Below are positions 1,192-63,999 of a stretch of DNA of 64,000 bases, in pieces. Positions within the stretch are counted from its first letter, which is position 1. Every line of letters begins with the position of its first letter. The position numbers and the translations under genes were made by a program. The stretch lies in IMG/VR virus record IMGVR_UViG_3300035695_000002, positions 56,725-120,724 of that record. One strand, written 5' to 3'. The notes under the pieces are model-generated. The model saw nothing but the letters and a program-made list of their open reading frames with translations, was not told where the DNA came from and did not search any database. The stretch comes from a virus.

Positions 1192-3711
1192 TTAAACATT
1201 TTCTATTGTTGCTATCGGTAATCTGGAACTGTTAGTTATACCTGACTGTGTAATCCTCCACTTATAAACTGTAGGATTGCCTATGAAATCGGTATTATAA
1301 ATAATATCCCCCTTTTTATAACCAATTGAGTTTGCATTACTCGCCACAAATACCCCTTGTTCTATTCCTTGCCAATCTACCCCAGTAACCTCAACAAGAC
1401 CATTATCTATTGCATTATTGCTTACAGTTATTGTTGTACTTGTCACAGATATAATATGAGTGCCTTCTGGAAAATAAGGACTGAATATCGTCATTCTTGG
1501 AGCAGCAGAACTAATAGGAGCTTCTCCTACACAATTTGTTATTACATTACTACCACTTATAGCATCTCCTATTACAAAAAATGGATAAACATTTGGTATT
1601 CTACCTATATAAAAATTGTAATTAGTTACAGCATCAATCCCCTTCCCTATATAGGAGAGGGTTATAGTGGATGTTGCGTCGTTTTTAGCTGTAACTACAC
1701 CACAACACAAGTACCTATTCGCAATTCCGTATTCATCAAGAATATTAGTTGTTCCATTAAGGAAGATAGTGTCCTGAATATATACTTTGTTGTAATCATC
1801 CCCTGCACTCATCACTATATCTGCTGTAAGATTTATAGCATCTATATTGCTAAAACTTAATGTCCCTGACTTTAAAGGGAAAAAATACCATTCTTCAGGA
1901 GTTCTTGTTGTAGAAGTGGGATTTGTTATATTTGTATTTCTTTTCCTTTTGCGTATCAAAGAACTTGTATTACCAAGTGGAGTAGATCCATTTCTCCTAT
2001 TATAACTAATAATCATATCTGATAGTAATAGATATGGAGTATTTTCTGATAATTCTTGTGGTTTAGATACTGTTATAATATCAGAACTTCCAAACGGTAA
2101 AGTACTTTGAGCACTTGAACAATTAACAAATTCTAATTGTCCTTGTAAATAATAATTAATTGGAAGTTGATTGAAATAACATTTATCGAAATAAGCACTT
2201 TGACAATCAACTGCTAAAGGTGTATAATAAATAGCTCCGTAAGTAAAGAACATCGAATCAACAACTTTGAGGTAGCCCCCTTTAAATATTGTATATGCAT
2301 TATGTATTGCCGGACTTCCGTATACAGGAGCTTGAAAATTGATTCTACAACCCTCTAATGTCATATGACCAAAAACAGTAGAACCATTGAGCATATAAAA
2401 GCTCTCCAAATGTCCTCTTTTTATAATTATTCCTTTATTTGCAAAAGATGTTAGTTTAGCTATATATCTAACACTCCCTGCCACATTAAGCCCATCTACT
2501 TCAGGATGATCCCCCGTACCGTTACCATAATCAAAAGAATTAAAGATGGTTTCGGTGTGCCCCCAACACTTAAAATTATTTATCTGGCATGACCTATTCT
2601 GTGATTGTCCAATAGATACTGCACTTCTACAACTATCTCCCCAACAATTATTGATACAGATAGCATCTCCGTTTTGAGGAGTGATGTGGGGACTTAAGCA
2701 ATATCCAACAACTAAATTAGCTACTCTACAACTATCGAAAATAATATCTGTAGAGCCTCCATTACCGTCTGCTGAATTATAATATGAAGCAAAATCAGGA
2801 TATATATCAGTTGCTGAAGAATCATTAATAAAAGGATCAACTACAAATCCTGCATGAGGAGAATAAGGAGTATCTCTACATCCTCCTGAAAAATTAGTTG
2901 CTGGATTTTCTAAAACATCATAAACCGATAAGTTAGCAATAGCTGAATTAGCACCATTTAAAAAAATACCATAAACCCTCACCCCTTTACATTTATGTAA
3001 TCCTACCATAAAAGTATTTTTATTGGTTGTAGTTAATTTTGTTTGTCCGGCAGTCCCATCATATACATTCGTCTCTCCTTCTAATCTAAAACTATTACAG
3101 AATTGATTCAGTCCTTGTCTAACCAGTATGCCAATCCCTATTTTATAATTACCAAATGGTAAATAAACATATTTTAACTTAGAAACAATAGCACTATCTA
3201 TTGTCTTTTGAATTGCGGGTTGGTCATCTTGAATACCGTCCCCTAATGCTCCAAACCATCTTACTGACCATTTTCCTAAAGATAACGCCTCTGGAACAAT
3301 TGTTAAAGTGGTGTCGAATATTTTACTTCTAAAAGGACCATCAATAATACCACCATTAATAGTTCCTATTCCTGTTAAATATGTTCCATTTTCAAAAATT
3401 AAATATTTTCCAGAAGGAACTGTCACTGTACCACTTATTGTTATTGCTCCTCCTCCTTTTATATCAAATTTAACCCCTTTTACATTTGAACTTGATAAAA
3501 TTGTATTTAATTTAGTGGTCATATCAGAGCCATTAGCATAAATACCGGCATTTCTACATGGCACTATACCATTTAATTCTAATGCAATCCATTTATTAGT
3601 ACCGTCATCATAACCAAATACTCCATCATTAGAGTATCCGGCAGGAAATGCAGCCACTTGCATCATTATATTTCCTCTATCTTGAATAAATGCTCCAGAA
3701 GCTACTGACAT
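1192..3711 (-). CDS. Tail spike with pectate-lyase-type beta-helix (839 aa)
   Basis: Residues 152-170 (WFGALGDGIQDDQPAIQKT) match the start of the Pectate_lyase_3 / tailspike beta-helix family, where an FGAxGDG...DDxxAIQ motif opens a right-handed parallel beta-helix. Evenly spaced hydrophobic and Asn/Gly-rich repeats follow for several hundred residues. The first ~50 residues would be the virion-attachment part. Such spikes usually bind or cut host surface polysaccharide. I cannot name catalytic residues, so depolymerase activity is an inference. The gene starts 3 nt after the stop of a 71-aa gene and ends 22 nt before the next fibre gene. Confidence 0.85.
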   Translation of the reverse strand: MSVASGAFIQDRGNIMMQVAAFPAGYSNDGVFGYDDGTNKWIALELNGIVPCRNAGIYANGSDMTTKLNTILSSSNVKGVKFDIKGGGAITISGTVTVPSGKYLIFENGTYLTGIGTINGGIIDGPFRSKIFDTTLTIVPEALSLGKWSVRWFGALGDGIQDDQPAIQKTIDSAIVSKLKYVYLPFGNYKIGIGILVRQGLNQFCNSFRLEGETNVYDGTAGQTKLTTTNKNTFMVGLHKCKGVRVYGIFLNGANSAIANLSVYDVLENPATNFSGGCRDTPYSPHAGFVVDPFINDSSATDIYPDFASYYNSADGNGGSTDIIFDSCRVANLVVGYCLSPHITPQNGDAICINNCWGDSCRSAVSIGQSQNRSCQINNFKCWGHTETIFNSFDYGNGTGDHPEVDGLNVAGSVRYIAKLTSFANKGIIIKRGHLESFYMLNGSTVFGHMTLEGCRINFQAPVYGSPAIHNAYTIFKGGYLKVVDSMFFTYGAIYYTPLAVDCQSAYFDKCYFNQLPINYYLQGQLEFVNCSSAQSTLPFGSSDIITVSKPQELSENTPYLLLSDMIISYNRRNGSTPLGNTSSLIRKRKRNTNITNPTSTTRTPEEWYFFPLKSGTLSFSNIDAINLTADIVMSAGDDYNKVYIQDTIFLNGTTNILDEYGIANRYLCCGVVTAKNDATSTITLSYIGKGIDAVTNYNFYIGRIPNVYPFFVIGDAISGSNVITNCVGEAPISSAAPRMTIFSPYFPEGTHIISVTSTTITVSNNAIDNGLVEVTGVDWQGIEQGVFVASNANSIGYKKGDIIYNTDFIGNPTVYKWRITQSGITNSSRLPIATIENV

Positions 3712-3933: not shown

Positions 3934-4566
3934 TTATTTTTTACCCACTTTTAACTCTAATATTTGAGGAATATGTACATGAGGATTAGAAGAGGTCATT
4001 TCTGAGAAATATTTCTTCTTTCCTAAAAACCATTTCCTTTTCCAATATAATACTCCATCTATAGGAGCATCTACTTCGTACTTTAGTACTGCACTGTCTG
4101 GAGAAACTTGTTTATAATCGAATTTTGACCATTTGTCTTGTTTTTTCCAATCTTTAGCTACAAATTTGATAGTGTCTCCTTTTTTATCTATATATGTGAT
4201 AGTTGTGTCTTTTGGATGGATACGTAAACTATCTATAGATTGAGATTGGACTTGGAAAGCATACTCTAGATTTTTATAACTTTTCTTTAATCCTTGGAAT
4301 TCCTTTAGAAAGGAGAGATTTCCATCTTTTACAAGTTGTTTGATTGTGTTATTTTCAAGAACAACAGCTTGGTTTTTAGCTACTTCTTCCCCTGACTTAT
4401 TTTTATAATATTGAGTTTTCATTTGCTCTTTACTAAAAAGCTGTTCTACACCCTGTTTTTGAGCCTTTTCTTCTCTATATTTGTTGTAAAATGTATAAAG
4501 TAGAACACCAGTTATGATTAGCAATAATACTAACCCTGCTTCTATTTTAAGTCTTAAAGATAACAT
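3934..4566 (-). CDS. N-terminally anchored membrane protein of the lysis cassette (210 aa)
   Basis: Residues about 9-28 form one strongly hydrophobic helix (LVLLLIITGVLLYTF). A lysine-rich turn and then a charged, coiled-coil-like region to about residue 120 follow. The C-terminal part has beta-type sequence (TTITYIDKKGDTIKF, VLYWKRKWFLGKKKYF). The topology of one N-terminal helix with a long periplasmic part resembles inner-membrane spanins or accessory lysis proteins, and the neighbours (small membrane proteins, M15 endolysin) agree. It could equally be a membrane protein unrelated to lysis. No lipobox or catalytic motif was seen. Confidence 0.55.
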   Translation of the reverse strand: MLSLRLKIEAGLVLLLIITGVLLYTFYNKYREEKAQKQGVEQLFSKEQMKTQYYKNKSGEEVAKNQAVVLENNTIKQLVKDGNLSFLKEFQGLKKSYKNLEYAFQVQSQSIDSLRIHPKDTTITYIDKKGDTIKFVAKDWKKQDKWSKFDYKQVSPDSAVLKYEVDAPIDGVLYWKRKWFLGKKKYFSEMTSSNPHVHIPQILELKVGKK

Positions 4567-4568
4567 AA

Positions 4569-4766
4569 TTACTCGTCTATTTTTTCTCCTGATTGTAATT
4601 TGAAATATAGAGCTGTTTCATGCCCCACCCATGTAAGAAATAATGATAGAAATACCCACCATTTGTTATCTTGGAATAGTAATACAGCACTCATAGCTGA
4701 TCCCAGTCTACTAACACTGGCTCCTAGGAAAGAATATTCTTTAGGTGTATCAGGAAGATATTTCAT
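4569..4766 (-). CDS. Small membrane protein, holin candidate (65 aa)
   Basis: A short protein with two hydrophobic stretches, about residues 14-32 and 36-54 (KWWVFLSLFLTWVGHE), separated by a short turn, and a charged C-terminus. I recognise the general sequence type as conserved in crAss-like phages, without an assigned function. Its start codon overlaps the stop of the 109-aa gene (TAATG), so the two are translationally coupled. Its position beside the endolysin makes a holin or pinholin-type role plausible, but this is inferred from size and context only. Confidence 0.55.
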   Translation of the reverse strand: MKYLPDTPKEYSFLGASVSRLGSAMSAVLLFQDNKWWVFLSLFLTWVGHETALYFKLQSGEKIDE

Positions 4767-5095
4767 TACTTTACTATAAACTTATCTATTATATATATAA
4801 TAAGTCCCAATGTCATTACAATACCTTGCCAATTACCTTTTAAAGTGTTCATGAAGGATTTATTTTCTTCTACTTTTGGAGAAATGTCGTCCAAATCTCT
4901 ATCCAATACTCTAATTTTCTCTCCTACAGTGGCTCTAAGGACAGCTAAGTCTGTTTTTAGGTCATTGTGACTGGTTTCCAACCCTGTAACTCTACCATTG
5001 GTTTTTCTACATTCTGTTAGAGTGTTTTCTCCTGTAATTTTTATTACAGCCAACTGTTCTCTTATTGTTGATAATTCTTCAGCAATATCTGCCAT
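4766..5095 (-). CDS. Coiled-coil protein with C-terminal membrane helix, holin-like (109 aa)
   Basis: Residues 1-80 are charged and heptad-like (ELSTIREQLAVIKI... ETSHNDLKTDLAVLRATV). The last ~20 residues are a hydrophobic helix (GIVMTLGLIIYIIDKFIV) ending in Lys. This layout resembles the XhlA class of phage lysis membrane proteins. It is the first gene after the promoter/terminator in the 5133-5198 intergenic space and couples to the 65-aa membrane protein. A role in lysis is inferred from layout and neighbours. Confidence 0.6.
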   Translation of the reverse strand: MADIAEELSTIREQLAVIKITGENTLTECRKTNGRVTGLETSHNDLKTDLAVLRATVGEKIRVLDRDLDDISPKVEENKSFMNTLKGNWQGIVMTLGLIIYIIDKFIVK

Positions 5096-5120
5096 TATTA
5101 TAATAATTAAGGGATTTATA

Positions 5121-5152
5121 CAAAAGTATGACTAAAAAAGCAAATTTCCAAG
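5121..5152 (-). promoter_or_regulatory. Bacteroidota-type promoter for the membrane-protein lysis genes
   Basis: On the minus strand there is CTTG (5149-5152), 20 nt, then TACTTTTG (5121-5128), matching the Bacteroidota primary-sigma consensus TTTG-N19-21-TAnnTTTG. The ATG of the 109-aa gene lies 25 nt downstream. The -33 box sits inside the stem of the terminator hairpin at 5144-5167. Confidence 0.65.
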
Positions 5153-5167
5153 GATTTACTTGGAAAT
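5133..5167 (-). terminator. Rho-independent terminator after the endolysin gene
   Basis: On the minus strand a perfect 9-bp stem, ATTTCCAAG / CTTGGAAAT, with a 6-nt loop, is followed by TTGCTTTTTT. It lies about 30 nt downstream of the endolysin stop. It overlaps the promoter of the next genes. Confidence 0.75.
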
Positions 5168-5198
5168 TAATGCTATAGAGAAATTGAATTATATGGAA

Positions 5199-5705
5199 TT
5201 AAACTAATCCATCCCAAGTGGGATCTGTGGATTTAACTATTGAAAATTTATCTAAATTTGGGAGATATTGCCAATGCCATCTCTCTGATAGTACTGTTCT
5301 TACAAAACCGTAAGTTTTAGCATTATGAAACATCCATTTATAGACATCTGGAGGAACATTGAAATCATAAGCATCTCCGTTTTGATGATTGGAATATCCA
5401 GGTTTAGCTGTTCTAGGACTAAATAGTCCATTATCTGCATTTATTAGATATGTCCTATCGTTTATTTTAGTCTTATCTATTACATTCCTTTGACGAAATC
5501 CATATTGCTCTTCCCAAGTTCTGAATCCTTCATTTAAATGGAGAGTGATATTGTCCTTTTTAGCACCGTTAATGATTGATTGTACAAAAGAAAGATAAGA
5601 ATTAACGACCTTTTTACCATCAATTAAGGAAATCCCCTCATATCTTAGGAGTTTTCCATTGTCATATAAGGCATATTCTCCTTTTCCGTTTTGAGATTCT
5701 ATCAT
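5199..5705 (-). CDS. Endolysin: M15-family (VanY-type) peptidase, 168 aa
   Basis: A zinc peptidase that would cut peptide stems of peptidoglycan (D,D-carboxypeptidase or L-alanyl-D-glutamate endopeptidase class). The family motif SxHxxGxAxD is present (S105, H107, G110, A112, D114), as is the ERWHW block with E141 and H144. The zinc ligands would therefore be H107, D114 and H144. The upstream motif EGFRTWEEQ (59-67) is also typical. The whole chain is the catalytic domain. There is no signal peptide, so export would need the holin-like proteins encoded just downstream. The start overlaps the stop of the 149-aa gene (TAATG). Confidence 0.92.
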   Translation of the reverse strand: MIESQNGKGEYALYDNGKLLRYEGISLIDGKKVVNSYLSFVQSIINGAKKDNITLHLNEGFRTWEEQYGFRQRNVIDKTKINDRTYLINADNGLFSPRTAKPGYSNHQNGDAYDFNVPPDVYKWMFHNAKTYGFVRTVLSERWHWQYLPNLDKFSIVKSTDPTWDGLV

Positions 5706-6154
5706 TAATAATTTAAAAATAATCGTTCAAATAGATAGATATAATTATAACTTAAGTTTTGTTTGGTTTCTTCTAATCTTTTATTCATTATTTCCCAATC
5801 TGGGAGTTCTTCAAAAACAATAGTCACTTCACTATCTAACAATTCTTTAGTTTTAGATTGCTTTAAAATACCTAATTTTAGATTGTCTTCATCATTTTCC
5901 TTATAATCTTCAGGAAGAGTTCCATTATATAATTCAGCAAACCCCAGAAGATTAATAGCTTGAAATTGTTCCCTAGACACATTCTCTCCAACTTTCTTAA
6001 GGGTTTTATTGGCTATTCTCCTCACTCCTTCACTTATAGATTTTTCATTACAAAACCCTAAAATCTTAACATCTTCCTTACCATTATTGAAAGATACTCC
6101 AGCTAGGAGATTTAAGCATTCATATAATTCTTCTACCTTTAACTTTTTTTCCAT
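5705..6154 (-). CDS. Conserved-looking hypothetical protein before the endolysin (149 aa)
   Basis: An acidic, helical protein starting MEKKLKVEELYECLNLLAG. I do not recognise it. A longer frame begins at a TTG at 6178, but that codon lies inside the -7 promoter box (6176-6183), so the ATG at 6154 is the better start. Its stop overlaps the endolysin start (TAATG), so the two proteins are made together. Late expression with the endolysin suggests a lysis-linked or virion role, but nothing in the sequence fixes a function. Confidence 0.6.
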   Translation of the reverse strand: MEKKLKVEELYECLNLLAGVSFNNGKEDVKILGFCNEKSISEGVRRIANKTLKKVGENVSREQFQAINLLGFAELYNGTLPEDYKENDEDNLKLGILKQSKTKELLDSEVTIVFEELPDWEIMNKRLEETKQNLSYNYIYLFERLFLNY

Positions 6155-6209: not shown

Positions 6210-7574
6210 TTAGCTCCAATTTCCCACATTTGTTACAGAATTAGTACCTACAGGCCAAATTCTGAAATAAGAATTCACTCCCACTATGGCTGCTGAGGCT
6301 ACACCTAAGCTAACTTGAGGAATTAGTGTTCCTCCTGCATTGATTCTCACAATTCCCCATATTCTAGCATGACCTGTAGTAGTGGTATTAGCTGCACTTA
6401 TAGCAACATTGGCTGCCGTATTAAATGATATTAAAGGAGCACTAGCTGTAGCTAAAGTACTTTTAGTAGCTGAAGATTGCCAAGTTTGTGAGGTAAATGT
6501 AGCCGTTCCTCCAAAAGAAAAACCAAAAGCCCCTGACGTAGAGGACATGGAAGTTAAGGAGAAAAAACACTCAAAATAGTAAGATTTTGAACTTGATACT
6601 GTTAAAGCCCCATTAGTGGAAGAATTAAACAGTTTTTGTGCTGCTGTTTGAGATGTAAGAGTATATGCTCCTGTTAAGGATATGAATTGTTCACTGTCTA
6701 CTACAGATCTTTCACTGGTAGCATGAGTCCAATATCGGATACCGTTAGCATCCACTTCTCCTACACCTGCTATTGCTGATGTTAATAAAGCAGCACTTGT
6801 TAATATAAAAGTTTCTGCTCCAAAAGAAGCAGTTCCAGCAGCATGTATTAATACACCAGGATTAAATGTCTTATTTCCTGTAACTGTTTGTACAGAGGCT
6901 AATACCATATCTCCACTACCACTAGGAGACCCCCAACTTACATTAGATCCATCTGTAGTGAGATATTTTCCTGTATTTCCTATTTGAGAAGGTAGAAGAT
7001 TGGTTATAGCTCCTGCACCGAAAGATGTAAGAGAAGAAGCAGTGACTCCTGATGCTAATGTGATTCCTGTTAATGTTCCTGCTGCTGCTGCGATAGTAAT
7101 ATTTCCACTACCATCAAAACTTACACCATTAATAGTTCTTGCAGTCTGTAACACTGTAGCACTACCAGCGTTTCCTGTAATTGTAGTGATTGTTATATTT
7201 GATGATAGAGCACTTCCATTAATAGTCCTGGAAGAAGGAACAGCATCTGTAATACCATATCCTCCTAATGTAGTTGGAATAGAAGTTAAACTACCAAAAG
7301 CTAGTGAACTTATAGTTGCGAAAGTTCCAAGTCCTAAATTGCTTCTAGCTGTTGTATAATTACTGAGTCCTGATAAATTATCAGTTTTCATCATATCTCC
7401 ATATGTAGGAGTTGATACAAAAACTGACCCATTCCAATATCTTACAGCATTTAAATCTGTATTATATATCACTACATCATGAGAATCTAGAAGCAATTGT
7501 TGGGCAAAAGCATCCTCTTGAGATTGTGTATAATCTGTTATTAATTGTAACGCTTTTGTTAATCTTACAGACAT
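6210..7574 (-). CDS. Tail fibre protein with long-fibre repeats (454 aa)
   Basis: The reliable start is the ATG at 7574 (MSVRLTKALQLITDYTQSQ), since the upstream extension reads through a different gene in another frame. After an N-terminal attachment segment (to ~45) come fibre repeats. These include ARTINGVSFDGSGNITI, LTSIPTTLGGYGITDAV and YLTTDGSNVSWGS, the last a common element of phage long-tail-fibre proteins. The C-terminal ~170 residues form a Ser/Thr/Ala-rich beta domain that could be the receptor-binding tip. The gene is 2 nt downstream of the 103-aa gene. The specificity cannot be read from sequence. Confidence 0.75.
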   Translation of the reverse strand: MSVRLTKALQLITDYTQSQEDAFAQQLLLDSHDVVIYNTDLNAVRYWNGSVFVSTPTYGDMMKTDNLSGLSNYTTARSNLGLGTFATISSLAFGSLTSIPTTLGGYGITDAVPSSRTINGSALSSNITITTITGNAGSATVLQTARTINGVSFDGSGNITIAAAAGTLTGITLASGVTASSLTSFGAGAITNLLPSQIGNTGKYLTTDGSNVSWGSPSGSGDMVLASVQTVTGNKTFNPGVLIHAAGTASFGAETFILTSAALLTSAIAGVGEVDANGIRYWTHATSERSVVDSEQFISLTGAYTLTSQTAAQKLFNSSTNGALTVSSSKSYYFECFFSLTSMSSTSGAFGFSFGGTATFTSQTWQSSATKSTLATASAPLISFNTAANVAISAANTTTTGHARIWGIVRINAGGTLIPQVSLGVASAAIVGVNSYFRIWPVGTNSVTNVGNWS

Positions 7575-50407: not shown

Positions 50408-50480
50408 AGCGTTGTCTTGGATTCGAACCAAGGATTTCAAGCTTATGAGGCTTGCGAGATAGTCCACTTCTCTAACCCGC
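50408..50480 (-). tRNA. Lone tRNA-Met(CAT)-like gene with weak acceptor stem
   Basis: The D arm (GAGA/TCTC), anticodon arm (CAAGC, loop CTCATAA, GCTTG) and T arm (CTTGG, TTCGAAT, CCAAG) are perfect. The acceptor strands GCGGGTT and ACAACGC pair only at 1-3 and 7, with two G-A and one T-C mismatch. It is 11 kb from the main tRNA array, between the HNH gene and the 321-aa gene. It may be decaying, or may act as an RNA-processing signal. Confidence 0.7.
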
Positions 50481-61332: not shown

Positions 61333-61347
61333 ATTGTTTAAATTTAG

Positions 61348-61418
61348 AATCAGGAGTGAGGTTCGAACTCACGTAATAGGTTTTGCAGACCTATGTTTAA
61401 CCACTCAACCATCCTGAT
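61348..61418 (-). tRNA. tRNA-Cys (GCA)
   Basis: Acceptor ATCAGGA/TCCTGAT; anticodon arm TAGGT, loop CTGCAAA, ACCTA. The last tRNA of the array in the direction of transcription. No encoded CCA. Confidence 0.93.
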
Positions 61419-61579
61419 ATTGCTTATCTGGAATTTCAAAGCCCTATATATTCCCAAGACCCTGCCACCCATCCCCAAAGTTACTGCCTTTTATGGGAGG
61501 ATTGCAAATAACATTCTAAGTTATTTTCTAACTATTTGATAATGAGGAGGAATAATTTCAAGTGAACACTTGACAAAAG
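61419..61579. other. 160-nt tRNA spacer holding a promoter
   Basis: Between tRNA-Gly and tRNA-Cys. I see no tRNA or gene here; the recognisable element is the promoter at 61476-61508. Confidence 0.6.
61476..61508 (-). promoter_or_regulatory. Bacteroidota-type promoter before tRNA-Cys
   Basis: Minus strand: TTTG (61505-61508), 21 nt, TAACTTTG (61476-61483). It points at tRNA-Cys and the 34-aa gene. Confidence 0.65.
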
Positions 61580-61651
61580 TGCAGTAAGTGAGACTTGAAC
61601 TCACAGCCCTTGGTTTGGAAGACCAATGCTCTACCTTGGAGCTATTACTGC
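61580..61651 (-). tRNA. tRNA-Gly (TCC)
   Basis: Acceptor GCAGTAA/TTACTGC; anticodon arm TTGGT, loop CTTCCAA, ACCAA. Confidence 0.93.
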
Positions 61652-61656
61652 ATATG

Positions 61657-61727
61657 TACCCAATGATGGAATCAAACCACCGCTACATGGATGTAAACCA
61701 AGTGCGCTATCATTACGCCAATTGGGC
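61657..61727 (-). tRNA. tRNA-Val (TAC)
   Basis: Acceptor GCCCAAT/ATTGGGT; anticodon loop TTTACAT on a stem CTTGG/CCATG with one mismatch. Confidence 0.88.
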
Positions 61728-61731
61728 ATTG

Positions 61732-61804
61732 TGGAACCATCTAGTAACGATCTAGAATTTCTCCCTCTTCAGGGGAGCACATATACCATATATGTTATAG
61801 TTCC
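61732..61804 (-). tRNA. tRNA-Phe (GAA)
   Basis: Acceptor GGAACTA/TGGTTCC; D arm ACAT/ATGT; anticodon arm CTCCC, loop CTGAAGA, GGGAG; T arm TCTAG/CTAGA with an unusual loop ATCGTTA. Confidence 0.85.
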
Positions 61805-61813
61805 TGATATGGA

Positions 61814-61857
61814 GCCAAGGGGCAGTGCTCCCACTGTAAGTTCCCTTTCAACTTGGC
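61814..61857 (-). ncRNA. Compact structured spacer RNA in the tRNA array
   Basis: Minus strand: outer stem GCCAAG/CTTGGC, then GGG/CCC, and an inner hairpin CAGTG-GGAG-CACTG. It is 44 nt long, too short for a tRNA and without an anticodon arm. It fills the gap between tRNA-Phe and the next tRNA. It could be a tRNA remnant or a processing element. Confidence 0.5.
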
Positions 61858-61863
61858 ATTTAG

Positions 61864-61934
61864 ATGCGAAGAGGGGAGTCGAACCCCTACGGTGAGGATA
61901 TGAGCCTCATGATCTACCATTAATCTACCTCGCA
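61864..61934 (-). tRNA. tRNA with CAT anticodon (elongator Met or Ile2)
   Basis: Acceptor TGCGAGG/CTTCGCA; anticodon arm TGAGG, loop CTCATAT, CCTCA. Whether it is elongator Met or lysidine-modified Ile2 (reading AUA) cannot be settled by eye. Confidence 0.88.
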
Positions 61935-61940
61935 ATATTG

Positions 61941-62013
61941 TTGTGATATTAGGAATCGAACCTAAAACCTCCACCTTATCAGAGTGTTGCGCTGCCAGTT
62001 GCGCCATATCACA
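61941..62013 (-). tRNA. tRNA-Ile (GAT)
   Basis: Acceptor TGTGATA/TATCACA; anticodon loop CTGATAA; T arm TAGG-TTCGATT-CCTA. Confidence 0.9.
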
Positions 62014-62017
62014 ATAA

Positions 62018-62090
62018 GTTCTGCCACAGGGAATCGAACCCTGGTCTGAAAGTTAAAAGCTTCCAGCTCTACCATTGAGCTATGACAGAA
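62018..62090 (-). tRNA. tRNA-Lys (TTT)
   Basis: Acceptor TTCTGTC/GGCAGAA; anticodon arm GGAAG, loop CTTTTAA, CTTTC. Confidence 0.92.
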
Positions 62091-62133
62091 TAAATCTTGT
62101 CATAGTCTTTCTTATCTGTTTCCATAATATTTT

Positions 62134-62161
62134 AACTGAGTGACATCAATGTCCTTCAGTT
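62134..62161 (-). ncRNA. Spacer hairpin upstream of tRNA-Lys
   Basis: A near-symmetric inverted repeat: AACTGA, 2 nt, GACAT, 2-nt loop, ATGTC, 2 nt, TCAGTT. That is 11 paired positions with a 2x2 internal loop. It starts 5 nt after the initiator-like tRNA. No T-run follows, so it is not a terminator; a processing site is possible. Confidence 0.5.
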
Positions 62162-62166
62162 GATAG

Positions 62167-62238
62167 TTGACCCTAGCAGTACCGATCTGCTGACCATCTC
62201 ATTATGAGTGAGGTGCTCCACCATTGAGCTAAGGGTCG
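62167..62238 (-). tRNA. tRNA-Met (CAT), initiator-like
   Basis: Acceptor CGACCCT/AGGGTCA, paired at 2-7 with a C1-A72 mismatch, the hallmark of bacterial initiator tRNA. D arm GCTC/GAGC; anticodon loop CTCATAA; T arm AGCAG/CTGCT with loop ATCGGTA. The three G-C pairs normal in the initiator anticodon stem are absent. Confidence 0.85.
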
Positions 62239-62241
62239 ATG

Positions 62242-62313
62242 TAGTCCTACTGAGATTCGAACTCAGACCAAAAGATTAGAAGTCTCTTATTCTTCCAATT
62301 AAACTATAGAACC
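62242..62313 (-). tRNA. tRNA-Arg (TCT)
   Basis: Acceptor GGTTCTA/TAGGACT; anticodon arm AGAGA, loop CTTCTAA, TCTTT; T arm CTGAG-TTCGAAT-CTCAG. Confidence 0.9.
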
Positions 62314-62350
62314 TTGTTCTACAGTTGTCTCCTTATGTTTACTTTCATAG

Positions 62351-62424
62351 ATCCCTAGGTCAGAGTTGAACTGACAGCCTCCAGTTTACAAAACTATTGC
62401 TCCACCAATTGAGCTACGTAGGGA
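62351..62424 (-). tRNA. tRNA-Thr (TGT)
   Basis: Acceptor TCCCTAC/CTAGGGA with a mismatch at pair 7; anticodon loop TTTGTAA; T arm GTCAG-TTCAACT-CTGAC. Confidence 0.87.
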
Positions 62425-62430
62425 ATATTG

Positions 62431-62499
62431 CACGCCCCCATAGAATCGAACTATGTCCTACGGTTTTGGAGACCGTCTGGCTACCTTAGCCTGAAGCAT
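62431..62499 (-). tRNA. tRNA-Trp (CCA)
   Basis: Acceptor ATGCTTC/GGGGCGT with three G-T pairs; anticodon arm ACGGT, loop CTCCAAA, ACCGT. Confidence 0.9.
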
Positions 62500-62506
62500 G
62501 TGTATG

Positions 62507-62577
62507 AGGGAAGTGATAGAATCGAACTACCATATAGTGATTAACAGTCACTTGTTCTGCCATTGAACTAACAACCC
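62507..62577 (-). tRNA. tRNA-Asn (GTT)
   Basis: Anticodon arm AGTGA, loop CTGTTAA, TCACT; T arm GGTAG-TTCGATT-CTATC. Acceptor GGGTTGT/ACTTCCC has two T-T mismatches. Confidence 0.87.
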
Positions 62578-62583
62578 TTTAAG

Positions 62584-62656
62584 CAGTCTTGAAGGGATTT
62601 GAACCCTCTCCGTACCCATAGACAGTGGGACATCTTAACCATTTGACCTCAAGACT
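62584..62656 (-). tRNA. tRNA-Asp (GTC)
   Basis: Acceptor AGTCTTG/CAAGACT; anticodon loop CTGTCTA on CCCA/TGGG. Confidence 0.9.
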
Positions 62657-62660
62657 ATGT

Positions 62661-62733
62661 GGAAAGGTTGGGGCTTCGAACCCCAGACTCCTGAATGCAA
62701 ATCAGGTGTGATAGCCAGCTTCACCAAACCCCC
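62661..62733 (-). tRNA. tRNA-Ala (TGC)
   Basis: Anticodon arm CCTGA, loop TTTGCAT, TCAGG; D arm GTGA/TCAC; acceptor GGGGGTT/ACCTTTC with three G-T pairs and one mismatch. It directly follows the hairpin at 62741-62767. Confidence 0.88.
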
Positions 62734-62740
62734 ATAAAAC

Positions 62741-62767
62741 AAAAAAGACTCCTTTTTGGGGAGCCTT
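62741..62767 (-). terminator. Terminator-like hairpin just upstream of tRNA-Ala
   Basis: Minus strand: AAGGCTCC, loop CCAAAAA, GGAGTCTT, then TTTT. It lies upstream of tRNA-Ala, not after a gene, and resembles the hairpin before tRNA-Pro in stem, loop and spacing. Confidence 0.75.
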
Positions 62768-62898
62768 ATTAACCTATTAGGTTATATCTTTTATTGGCTC
62801 CAACAATACACTCCCACCTTACCACAATCTCTTGTCGCAAACATGGTGAATATAATATTAAACCAATTCCTTTTCATATTATTCTATTTAAACTTCTG
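62768..62898. other. 130-nt spacer without a recognised gene
   Basis: Between the hairpin and tRNA-Glu. It contains a small palindrome (AACCTATTAGGTT) and a 17-codon frame that I do not call. Nothing else seen. Confidence 0.5.
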
Positions 62899-62971
62899 TA
62901 CTCCCAAGGGGCTATGATCCCCTGTTTTAACATTGAAAGTGTTATGTCCTAGCCAATTAGACGATGGGAGC
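62899..62971 (-). tRNA. tRNA-Glu (TTC)
   Basis: Acceptor GCTCCCA/TGGGAGT; anticodon arm TAACA, loop CTTTCAA, TGTTA. Confidence 0.9.
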
Positions 62972-63026
62972 ATATTGCTCCTCACTCTCTATTTCACTAT
63001 TTTGGACTATGTCTTTCATGGGAATA

Positions 63027-63034
63027 CAAACCTA
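63027..63034 (-). promoter_or_regulatory. Possible -7 promoter box before tRNA-Glu
   Basis: TAGGTTTG on the minus strand matches TAnnTTTG, but no good TTG box lies 19-21 nt upstream. It sits in the 108-nt gap between tRNA-Tyr and tRNA-Glu. Confidence 0.35.
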
Positions 63035-63079
63035 GTAAATAAAATACATAATTCCTAATATTTATCAAGTTATTTTTAG

Positions 63080-63160
63080 TTGTATAGGCAGGAATCGAAC
63101 CTACATAGCCTAAGCGGTGGTTTTACAGACCCTTGATTTAGCCAATTTACCATCTATACA
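63080..63160 (-). tRNA. tRNA-Tyr (GTA)
   Basis: Acceptor TGTATAG/CTATACA; anticodon loop CTGTAAA; long variable arm as expected for bacterial tRNA-Tyr. Confidence 0.92.
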
Positions 63161-63166
63161 ATATAG

Positions 63167-63251
63167 AAGAGAGTAGGAGATTTGAACTTCTGGAGCTGTT
63201 ACACCCTTTTGTTTAGCAAACAAACACAATAAGCCACTCTGTCAACTCTCT
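63167..63251 (-). tRNA. tRNA-Ser (GCT)
   Basis: Acceptor AGAGAGT/ACTCTCT; anticodon arm TTTGT, loop TTGCTAA, ACAAA; long variable arm. Confidence 0.92.
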
Positions 63252-63255
63252 GTAG

Positions 63256-63342
63256 AAGAGGGTGTGGGATTCAAACCCACGGAACTTTTACATCCTCTGG
63301 TTTTCAAGACCAGTGCAATAAATCAGACTCTACCAACCCTCT
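63256..63342 (-). tRNA. tRNA-Ser (TGA)
   Basis: Acceptor AGAGGGT/ACCCTCT; anticodon arm CTGGT, loop CTTGAAA, ACCAG; long variable arm. Confidence 0.93.
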
Positions 63343-63347
63343 TTATG

Positions 63348-63435
63348 TATCCCTAGAAGGCATCGAACCTTCACACTACTATTATTTCGCTTTAGATTTT
63401 AAGTCTAACGTGTCTGCCAATTTCACCATAGGGAC
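63348..63435 (-). tRNA. tRNA-Leu (TAA)
   Basis: Acceptor GTCCCTA/TAGGGAT; anticodon arm TTAGA, loop CTTAAAA, TCTAA; long variable arm. Confidence 0.93.
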
Positions 63436-63438
63436 ATG

Positions 63439-63513
63439 TACTTCAGGTGGAATTCGAATCCACAAGCCCCTGATTCTAAATCAGAGAGGTTTACCATTTT
63501 CCTTCACTGAAGC
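63439..63513 (-). tRNA. tRNA-Leu (TAG) with short variable arm
   Basis: Acceptor GCTTCAG/CTGAAGT; anticodon arm TCTGA, loop TTTAGAA, TCAGG; T arm GTGGA-TTCGAAT-TCCAC. The variable region is only about 5-6 nt, unlike normal type II tRNA-Leu. Confidence 0.82.
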
Positions 63514-63519
63514 ATATAG

Positions 63520-63591
63520 TCTTTTCTTAAGGATTTGAACCTTAATTGCAGAGTTCGTAGCCCTGAGTCCTTCCATTTAAACGAAGAAAAG
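63520..63591 (-). tRNA. tRNA-Arg (ACG)
   Basis: Acceptor CTTTTCT/AGAAAAG; anticodon arm CAGGG, loop CTACGAA, CTCTG. A34 would need inosine editing to read CGC/CGA. Confidence 0.9.
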
Positions 63592-63596
63592 AAATA

Positions 63597-63667
63597 GGTG
63601 TCTGATGGGAATTGACCCCACACATCTTTGATTCACAGTCAAAGGCTCTACATTAAGCTACAGACAC
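63597..63667 (-). tRNA. tRNA-His (GTG)
   Basis: Acceptor GTGTCTG/CAGACAC with C73; anticodon arm TTTGA, loop CTGTGAA, TCAAA. Position -1 is T in the gene, not the usual G. Confidence 0.9.
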
Positions 63668-63669
63668 AG

Positions 63670-63741
63670 TTTTAATATTGGGATTCGAACCCAAACTACC
63701 AGATTCAAAATCCGAGGTGCTAACCGTTACACCATATTAAA
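63670..63741 (-). tRNA. tRNA-Gln (TTG)
   Basis: Acceptor TTTAATA/TATTAAA; anticodon arm TCGGA, loop TTTTGAA, TCTGG. Confidence 0.9.
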
Positions 63742-63743
63742 AG

Positions 63744-63819
63744 TCTAGATGGCAGGATTTGAACCTGCGTAATCCTGCTTCCAAGGCAGGCTAGATAAAC
63801 CTAACTCCTATACATCTAG
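63744..63819 (-). tRNA. tRNA-Pro (TGG)
   Basis: Acceptor CTAGATG/CATCTAG; anticodon arm CCTGC, loop CTTGGAA, GCAGG. First tRNA of the array in the direction of transcription. Confidence 0.92.
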
Positions 63820-63824
63820 AAAAT

Positions 63825-63852
63825 AAAAAACCCCTCTTTTTGGGAGGGGTCT
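63825..63852 (-). terminator. Terminator-like hairpin just upstream of tRNA-Pro
   Basis: Minus strand: GACCCCTC, loop CCAAAAA, GAGGGGTT, then TTTTATTTT. It lies between the promoter at 63968-63999 and the first tRNA, 5 nt before tRNA-Pro. Confidence 0.8.
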
Positions 63853-63875: not shown

Positions 63876-63962
63876 TCAACTATAATCAAACACAAATATC
63901 CCCTCACCTCCTAGATAACTAGGGAGCGAATGCTGTTGTGAAGGGCGTAAGTATTGTTTCAT
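63876..63962 (-). CDS. Possible 28-aa leader peptide ahead of the tRNA array
   Basis: ATG at 63962, starting 5 nt after the -7 box, so it would be translated from a leaderless RNA. Peptide MKQYLRPSQQHSLPSYLGGE, then GIFVFDYS and TGA. A hairpin (CTCCCTAG/CTAGGAGG) lies inside it and a terminator follows 23 nt after its stop. The promoter - short ORF - hairpin - terminator - tRNA order looks like an attenuator, but coding is unproven. Confidence 0.35.
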   Translation of the reverse strand: MKQYLRPSQQHSLPSYLGGEGIFVFDYS

Positions 63963-63967
63963 AAAGG

Positions 63968-63999
63968 CAAATATATGTAAAAGGATTGACATTTCCAAA
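63968..63999 (-). promoter_or_regulatory. Bacteroidota-type promoter ahead of the tRNA array
   Basis: Minus strand: TTTG (63996-63999), 20 nt, TATATTTG (63968-63975). Both boxes fully match the consensus TTTG-N19-21-TAnnTTTG. Confidence 0.8.

Follow-up and report, generated by a model that had tools for sequence, protein, structure and literature searches.

A complete, non-redundant tRNA array in a crAss-like phage with predicted attenuators that would sense its own tRNAs

The purpose of phage transfer RNAs (tRNAs) has been debated for 50 years, and the locus studied here raises the question of why a phage should carry tRNA genes for all 20 amino acids, and when it would express them. The array lies in a 64,000-nucleotide stretch of viral DNA (the window), corresponding to positions 56,725-120,724 of the 120,724-base virus contig IMGVR_UViG_3300035695_000002; all feature coordinates given below are window positions. 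The phage is a member of the Crassvirales (crAss-like phages), as the portal, large terminase and major head protein all gave crAss-type PHROG matches and crAss-like portals were matched by tblastn; up to a few hundred relatives were found in IMG/VR, the number varying with the query gene. Our results make it highly probable that the array is a complete and non-redundant tRNA set, divided into two units that would each be placed under ribosome-mediated attenuation sensing their own tRNAs.

With default settings, ARAGORN detected 22 tRNA genes at 61347-63819, on the minus strand throughout, and 21 of the cluster tRNAs exceeded the Rfam gathering score. Trp(CCA) (62431-62499, 28.0 bits) and Tyr(GTA) (63081-63159, 24.4 bits) fall slightly under that score and were recovered by ARAGORN with relaxed thresholds, and Phe(GAA) (61731-61804) was detected by ARAGORN only, with no Rfam match; relaxed matches on the opposite strand or overlapping real tRNAs were discarded. 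The cluster totals 24 tRNA genes representing all 20 amino acids. ARAGORN and Rfam confirm the inventory proposed in the initial annotation, namely 24 minus-strand tRNAs for every amino acid, together with its list of anticodons. That annotation had overlooked a 25th tRNA (CAT; 43.8 bits with Rfam), solitary at 50408-50480 and outside the cluster, as well as the two-unit control layout.

This layout emerged from an alignment of the window with L009, a close relative, in which the non-tRNA blocks conserved like the tRNAs were two 28-codon open reading frames (ORFs) and an intrinsic terminator after each. The array can be read as two transcription units, each opening with a 28-codon leader ORF and having a terminator approximately 25 nucleotides past the leader stop codon. 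Unit 1 comprises the tRNAs for Pro, Gln, His, Arg(ACG), Leu(TAG), Leu(TAA), Ser(TGA), Ser(GCT), Tyr and Glu, and its leader, MKQYLRPSQQHSLPSYLGGEGIFVFDYS, has at least one codon for each of them, with the two Leu, two Ser and CGN classes counted separately. Unit 2 comprises Ala, Asp, Asn, Trp, Thr, Arg(TCT), Ile2, Lys, Ile, Met, Phe, Val, Gly and Cys, and leader 2, MKRNWFNIIFTMFATRDCGKVGVYCWSQ, has a codon for each of these fourteen tRNAs, including ATA, ATG and AGR. In L009, the frame of leader 1 is maintained across a 3-nucleotide indel, and leader 2 shows synonymous differences only. Moreover, GAGGGG in leader 1 and GGAGCC near the end of leader 2 can each pair with the 5' arm of the terminator that follows. 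As each block stands behind a leader holding all of its codons and a terminator, the tRNAs are probably made only on shortage. Searched with the Rfam T-box covariance model, the array region yielded nothing, even with the cut-off relaxed to E <= 1. The Bacteroidota promoter consensus is TAnnTTTG, and a motif of this type precedes unit 1. The features are as follows:

63968..63999, minus: promoter-like motif of unit 1, TTTG (63999-63996) plus TATATTTG (63975-63968), Bacteroidota type; read from sequence, conserved in L009
63876..63962, minus: leader ORF 1, MKQYLRPSQQHSLPSYLGGEGIFVFDYS; codons for all ten unit 1 tRNAs
63900..63905, minus: antiterminator segment GAGGGG within leader 1; partner CCCCTC in terminator 1
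63821..63851, minus: intrinsic terminator 1, GACCCCTCccaaaaaGAGGGGTT plus T-run; -12.4 kcal/mol
63743..63819, minus: tRNA-Pro(TGG); ARAGORN, Rfam
63669..63741, minus: tRNA-Gln(TTG); ARAGORN, Rfam
63597..63667, minus: tRNA-His(GTG); ARAGORN, Rfam
63519..63591, minus: tRNA-Arg(ACG); ARAGORN, Rfam
63438..63513, minus: tRNA-Leu(TAG); ARAGORN, Rfam
63347..63435, minus: tRNA-Leu(TAA); ARAGORN, Rfam
63255..63342, minus: tRNA-Ser(TGA); ARAGORN, Rfam
63166..63251, minus: tRNA-Ser(GCT); ARAGORN, Rfam
63081..63159, minus: tRNA-Tyr(GTA), weak score; relaxed ARAGORN, sub-gathering Rfam
62957..63019, minus: Glu leader ORF, MKDIVQNSEIESEEQYAPIV, four Glu codons; stop codon within tRNA-Glu, promoter-like TAGGTTTG upstream
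62898..62971, minus: tRNA-Glu(TTC); ARAGORN, Rfam
62791..62877, minus: leader ORF 2, MKRNWFNIIFTMFATRDCGKVGVYCWSQ; codons for all fourteen unit 2 tRNAs, including ATA, ATG, AGR
62796..62801, minus: antiterminator segment GGAGCC, final codons of leader 2; L018 counterpart TTGGAAC:GTTCCAA
62735..62767, minus: intrinsic terminator 2, AAGGCTCCccaaaaaGGAGTCTT plus T-run; -9.3 kcal/mol
62661..62733, minus: tRNA-Ala(TGC); ARAGORN, Rfam
62583..62656, minus: tRNA-Asp(GTC); ARAGORN, Rfam
62506..62577, minus: tRNA-Asn(GTT); ARAGORN, Rfam
62431..62499, minus: tRNA-Trp(CCA), 28.0 bits; relaxed ARAGORN, sub-gathering Rfam
62350..62424, minus: tRNA-Thr(TGT); ARAGORN, Rfam
62319..62348, minus: Arg leader ORF, MKVNIRRQL (AGG AGA); hairpin with 5' acceptor of tRNA-Arg(TCT)
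62241..62313, minus: tRNA-Arg(TCT); ARAGORN, Rfam
62166..62238, minus: tRNA(CAT), probably Ile2 (AUA); ARAGORN; C4-G69, C5-G68; Ile(TAT) in the L009 slot
62069..62125, minus: Lys leader ORF, METDKKDYDKIYSVIAQW; stop codon within tRNA-Lys, CTATGACA:TGTCATAG hairpin over the 5' acceptor strand
62018..62089, minus: tRNA-Lys(TTT); ARAGORN, Rfam
61940..62013, minus: tRNA-Ile(GAT); ARAGORN, Rfam
61863..61934, minus: tRNA(CAT), Met; ARAGORN, Rfam
61731..61804, minus: tRNA-Phe(GAA); ARAGORN only; compensatory changes preserve the stem in L009 and L122
61656..61727, minus: tRNA-Val(TAC); ARAGORN, Rfam
61579..61651, minus: tRNA-Gly(TCC); ARAGORN, Rfam
61347..61418, minus: tRNA-Cys(GCA); ARAGORN, Rfam
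50408..50480, minus: 25th tRNA (CAT), initiator-like; Rfam; near the major head protein gene, place conserved in many array-less relatives

Is the match between leader and unit a general property? We compared 10 phages, namely the window, three relatives with arrays and six deposited genomes. Of their 23 leaders, 21 hold a codon for every class of their own unit, and 183 of 185 downstream tRNA classes are covered, two CAT tRNAs per unit being counted as one class that is satisfied by AUA or an internal AUG. The only class missed is Glu, once in L018 and once in L122, two phages that place a separate Glu-rich leader before tRNA-Glu; in L122, leader 2 is complete and leader 1 lacks Glu only. On average, a leader covers 0.99 of the classes of its own unit and 0.63 of those of a randomly chosen one, and the actual pairing of leaders with units was the single best of 41,472 within-phage permutations (1 of 3,456 for the first 17 leaders by themselves). 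Cellulophaga phages phi38:1 and phi10:1 and Tenacibaculum phage Gundel_1 were examined only once the hypothesis was fixed, and all six of their leaders (three, one and two, respectively) are complete; the phi10:1 leader, MLKKWSYSCFSYSFKNGEVIL, precedes Tyr, Trp, Phe, Ser and Cys. Cellulophaga phi4:1 and Maribacter phage Panino (PP540027.1, L222) have three leaders each, and Leptolyngbya phage Lbo-JY46 (PP438436.1, L216), with a portal 26% identical, has three units with three matching leaders, one of them, leader C (MKITRQHTQFWFPTGTGLGML), standing before Pro, Thr, Phe, Gln, His, Arg and Trp. As phi38:1, phi10:1 and Gundel_1 are placed by their records in the Pervagoviridae, Assiduviridae and Pachyviridae, the leader layout is not confined to crAss-like phages.

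The leaders also follow the losses of their arrays. In L018, which has a 16-tRNA array, the unit 1 leader lacks UUR and UCN codons and the unit 2 leader lacks AUY, AUA/AUG and GUN, corresponding to its absent Leu(TAA), Ser(TGA), Ile, CAT and Val tRNAs; five of seven lost tRNA classes are also gone from the leaders (Fisher P 0.003), with Lys and Ser(GCT) codons retained despite the loss of those tRNAs. Between phages, the order and sequence of the leader peptides shift while codon-class content is maintained, and antiterminator and terminator change together, both for leader 1 (GAGGGG:CCCCTC, TAGAGG:CCTCTA, ACAGGGG:CCCCTGT) and for leader 2 (GGAGCC:GGCTCC, TTGGAAC:GTTCCAA). Searches by tblastn with the leader peptides gave nothing convincing outside their own phages, which is expected if composition, not sequence, is conserved, and a leader 2 DNA pattern search of the collections returned the known relatives and one chance match in a coding gene (L174).

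An intrinsic terminator with a T-run follows every leader, starting mostly 22 to 35 nucleotides past the stop codon, while none of the 75 tRNAs of the control phages XacN1, PA5oct, Myrna and Salmonella PS5 has a terminator directly upstream. A terminator match before Ile(tat) in Gordonia phage Sixama looks spurious, its hairpin lying inside a tRNA-like sequence, and one before Gln in Lbo-JY46 was discounted, as it falls in the neighbouring tRNA. The energies of the duplexes between leader and terminator arm exceed those of dinucleotide shuffles (combined P 2e-11), although combined P values overstate the evidence, as related phages are treated as independent; the permutation test and the six later leaders offer firmer ground. 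In an equilibrium fold model, the terminator has a probability of 0.95 with the ribosome at the stop codon and 0.62 with the ribosome stalled in the first 60% of the leader. The kinetic fold model is more clear-cut: a stalled ribosome leaves the 5' arm of the terminator sequestered by upstream sequence with a probability of 0.71, which drops to 0.45 when the leaders are shuffled and to 0.08 when the ribosome has reached the stop codon (Wilcoxon P 8e-6 in each case, over the 18 leaders known by then).

Based on these elements, we propose that the polymerase would first transcribe a leader ORF carrying at least one codon per tRNA of the unit. With all cognate charged tRNAs present, the ribosome would reach the stop codon and cover the antiterminator segment at the end of the ORF, so that the terminator would form approximately 25 nucleotides downstream and the tRNAs of the unit would not be made. 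When any one cognate tRNA is scarce, the ribosome would stall upstream and the antiterminator would pair with the 5' arm of the terminator, allowing the polymerase to read through and the whole unit to be expressed until supply returns. That stalling would activate, rather than silence, the array is suggested by the position of the antiterminator after the control codons. The likely purpose would be to sustain phage translation when host tRNAs are cut or lost, and Glu, Lys and Arg(UCU) each have an additional private leader. The trigger most consistent with a complete, non-redundant and depletion-sensing set would be host tRNA destruction by defence nucleases. The earlier suggestion that the phage may tolerate loss of host tRNAs gains support here from predicted attenuators that would respond to scarce cognate tRNAs.

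The leaders, their codon content, the terminators, the alternative pairing, the conservation and the covariation can all be read directly from the sequence; read-through control is inferred. Several points weigh against the attenuation proposed here. The antiterminator is not individually significant in one or both tests for leaders 2 and 3 of phi4:1, leaders 2 and 3 of Panino and leader A of Lbo-JY46, and for several leaders the terminator is still favoured at equilibrium despite a stalled ribosome, in which case the switch would have to be kinetic. In addition, the leaders were initially spotted by eye, the units were assigned by hand, several relatives are non-independent, the coverage null applied the codon usage of the window to every phage, and coupling of transcription and translation in Bacteroidota is an assumption.

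Three tRNAs have leaders of their own. In the window, L009, L018 and L122, a Glu-rich ORF preceded by a separate promoter-like motif extends into the tRNA-Glu gene, and the hairpin over the 5' acceptor strand of the window tRNA (GGAGC:GCTCC) covaries in L009 (GGAAC:GTTCC). The hairpin of the Lys leader (METDKK...) over the 5' acceptor covaries in L009 and L122, and tracks the complete change of the acceptor in L122. For Arg(UCU), short ORFs with AGR codons are found, with weak hairpins in L009 and L122. Cognate codons are significantly enriched in the Glu and Arg leaders, and marginally so in the Lys leader. Both the action of these leaders and the natural trigger of the array are put forward as inferences. 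Both PrrC and PARIS are known to attack Lys(UUU) (PMC10264068, PMC12409363); the PARIS cut falls at the anticodon stem, and stem changes allow the resistant T5 tRNA to escape it (PMC12409363). A wider view would be that Bacteroidota phages of several families hold a silent complete tRNA set, released on any host tRNA destruction, and that translation of the Glu, Lys and Arg ORFs additionally gates tRNA folding by freeing a sequestered acceptor strand; this is plausible, and we advance it with some reserve.

Would the array tRNAs be fit for such a role? L120 and L122 have the same 24 tRNAs in the same order as the window. Compared with L122, all 24 slots have identical anticodon and order, and the anticodon loops are 95% identical; the anticodon stems share only 49% identity, yet double compensatory changes (51) outnumber broken pairs (10), as they also do in the comparison with L009 (39 and 7). 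These kept anticodons and compensatory changes make the genes look functional and not decaying. Among relatives, the array tRNAs vary more in the anticodon stem than in the acceptor stem or anticodon loop. In L009, an ARAGORN 'Ser(act)' call is a misfolded Leu(TAG).

Regarding decoding capacity, CGG had been pointed out as a gap, which is formal only, since the phage uses this codon 0.1 times per 1000. AUA had been said to depend on a CAT tRNA being Ile2, and that at 62166 probably is: C4-G69 and C5-G68, cited as Ile2 determinants (PMC12069591), are present, and the E. coli determinant G27-U43 is absent. In L009, an Ile(TAT) tRNA (4523-4611) sits in the slot of the window Ile2(CAT) (62166-62238), so that AUA decoding would be kept there by a different tRNA, without lysidine; this substitution also supports Ile2 identity. 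For comparison with organelles, the list of the 30 plastid tRNAs was used. The resemblance to a minimal organellar set noted earlier holds for anticodons: the 24 of the array plus the solitary CAT equal the 25-species tobacco plastid minimum, including ACG alone for the CGN box, a match claimed at the anticodon level since the CAT tRNAs at 61863 and 50408 cannot be separated as elongator and initiator. That minimum is the 30 tRNAs minus Gly-GCC, Thr-GGU, Leu-CAA, Ser-GGA and Val-GAC (PMC3499367). The apicoplast set, also of 25 and described as the lowest known (PMC12069591), is likened to the array by count only. The phage still depends on its host for synthetases and for CCA addition, and probably for TilS. 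A Pfam scan of 30 larger proteins encoded in the other half of the genome yielded neither a synthetase nor an RNA ligase, leaving a role for such phage enzymes unsupported.

We then considered what else could account for the array. The strongest contender, which we nevertheless regard as rather unlikely, accepts the attenuators as real and holds that their natural signal is amino-acid starvation (uncharged tRNA) or slow translation, the array tuning supply and having no anti-defence role. Indeed, a stalled ribosome would sense uncharged and destroyed tRNA alike, and the known precedents are amino-acid operons such as ilvBNC. However, extra tRNA gives no relief from amino-acid starvation, the array is complete and non-redundant, and the tRNAs with private leaders include Lys(UUU), the PrrC and PARIS target. 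A reversed polarity, with leader translation required for expression and the array on only in healthy translation, is known for some leader ORFs of other attenuators, but it is very improbable here: the antiterminator lies at the end of the ORF, past the cognate codons, where a finishing ribosome would cover it, and the modelled terminator probability is 0.95 with the ribosome at the stop codon. Equally improbable is that the array patches the codon usage of phage genes. AUA, which the array reads, is frequent in the phage (34 per 1000), but each box receives one tRNA whatever its use, Arg(ACG) is kept though CGN is nearly unused, and the commonest four-box codons mostly end in U while the tRNAs have U34; the last point also bears out the initial annotation, which had set a codon-bias patch aside. 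Finally, that the terminators simply end the genes upstream and the leaders are frames arising by chance, as AT-rich phage DNA commonly has short ORFs and terminators, is the least credible explanation of all, given leader codon classes that match their own unit, a frame maintained in L009, a nearly constant distance from stop codon to terminator, covarying antiterminators, and no comparable terminator for the 75 tRNAs of the four control phages' arrays.

Other observations concern the surroundings of the arrays. The solitary initiator-like tRNA(CAT) near the major head protein gene has equivalents at L009 17241, L020 15576, L068 14041, L178 15664 and elsewhere, and many array-less relatives have a tRNA-Met(CAT) in the same place, several of these equivalents having the initiator-typical C1-A72 mismatch. 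Near the downstream end of the array lies a G-rich, G-quadruplex-like element, GGGGATGGGTGGCAGGGTCTTGGG (61477-61450, minus), conserved in four relatives, with equivalents at ~5800 in L009, ~5215 in L018 and ~4245 in L011. HNH homing endonuclease-like ORFs, assigned by eye, were seen within the arrays of L009 (~4900-5200), L018 (3876-4264), L011 (3640-4860) and L101 (55-500), and in L101 the tRNA-Phe gene is split by such an ORF. The array of L011 has collapsed and contains a chimeric tRNA (5' Pro, 3' Phe; 3255-3550), with leader 1 and its terminator intact, which suggests a recent deletion. The recorded host of Lbo-JY46 is cyanobacterial; Bacteroidota-type promoter motifs (TTTG / TAnnTTTG) stand upstream of each leader, so that the phage may in fact infect a member of the Bacteroidota growing alongside in the culture. 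Its record carries no annotation for the ARAGORN-found tRNA-Ser(TGA) (~5687-5776), tRNA-Arg(ACG) (~6639-6710) and tRNA-Trp(CCA) (~6716-6785), and in Panino an annotated transfer-messenger RNA (L222 2858-3190) overlaps the array tRNA-Asp and tRNA-Thr and may be a false call.

If the arrays do sense the absence of their own products, phage tRNAs would, in these phages, be conditional replacements for lost tRNAs and not codon-bias supplements, attenuation would be widened from single amino acids to the whole codon table, and a ready-made reporter of tRNA depletion by defence nucleases would be at hand. Direct tests are possible in the cultured phages phi4:1, phi38:1, phi10:1, Panino and Gundel_1. 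Moreover, the set equals the smallest tRNA complement known to support translation, which is relevant to minimal-cell design. With the plastid minimum, it shares 25 anticodons, non-redundancy, one U34 tRNA per four-codon box and ACG for CGN; superwobble, in which U34 reads all four codons, is putative for the array, the likeness being one of anticodons alone. Unlike the plastid set, it belongs to a virus, which has the tRNAs of the host at its disposal as well and depends on host synthetases and modification enzymes.

Large phage tRNA arrays have been described in XacN1 (PMC5852040), Shigella phage Sf14 (PMC12482277) and mycobacteriophage cluster C1 (PMC10264068), and coverage of all 20 amino acids was already known from XacN1 (PMC5852040). 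Together with those of Myrna and Sixama, these arrays have in common with ours the clustering of tRNAs, in some cases for all 20 amino acids and in some with HNH endonucleases, but they are mostly redundant sets; and XacN1, PA5oct, Myrna and Salmonella PS5, unlike the present array, have no terminator directly before their tRNAs. Phage tRNAs also counter tRNA-cutting defences, as reported for T5 against PARIS (PMC12409363), for retrons (PMC11555353) and for anticodon-loop escape (PMC10264068). Such tRNAs likewise replace those destroyed by immunity and carry changes near the cleavage site, whereas the literature searched describes no depletion-sensing regulation for their arrays, nor any phage tRNA array under attenuation; its coverage of subscription journals is thin, so that priority is unproven. 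The trp, his, leu, ilv, thr and pheST leaders are ribosome-mediated transcription attenuators of amino-acid operons, and share with the phage array a leader ORF with control codons, a downstream intrinsic terminator and a mutually exclusive antiterminator pairing. Each of them responds to between one and three amino acids and regulates genes for biosynthesis or for a synthetase, whereas a single phage leader would sample up to 14 codon classes and control the matching tRNA genes. Overall, the predicted logic is that of a trp-type attenuator, with many codons in place of one or two.

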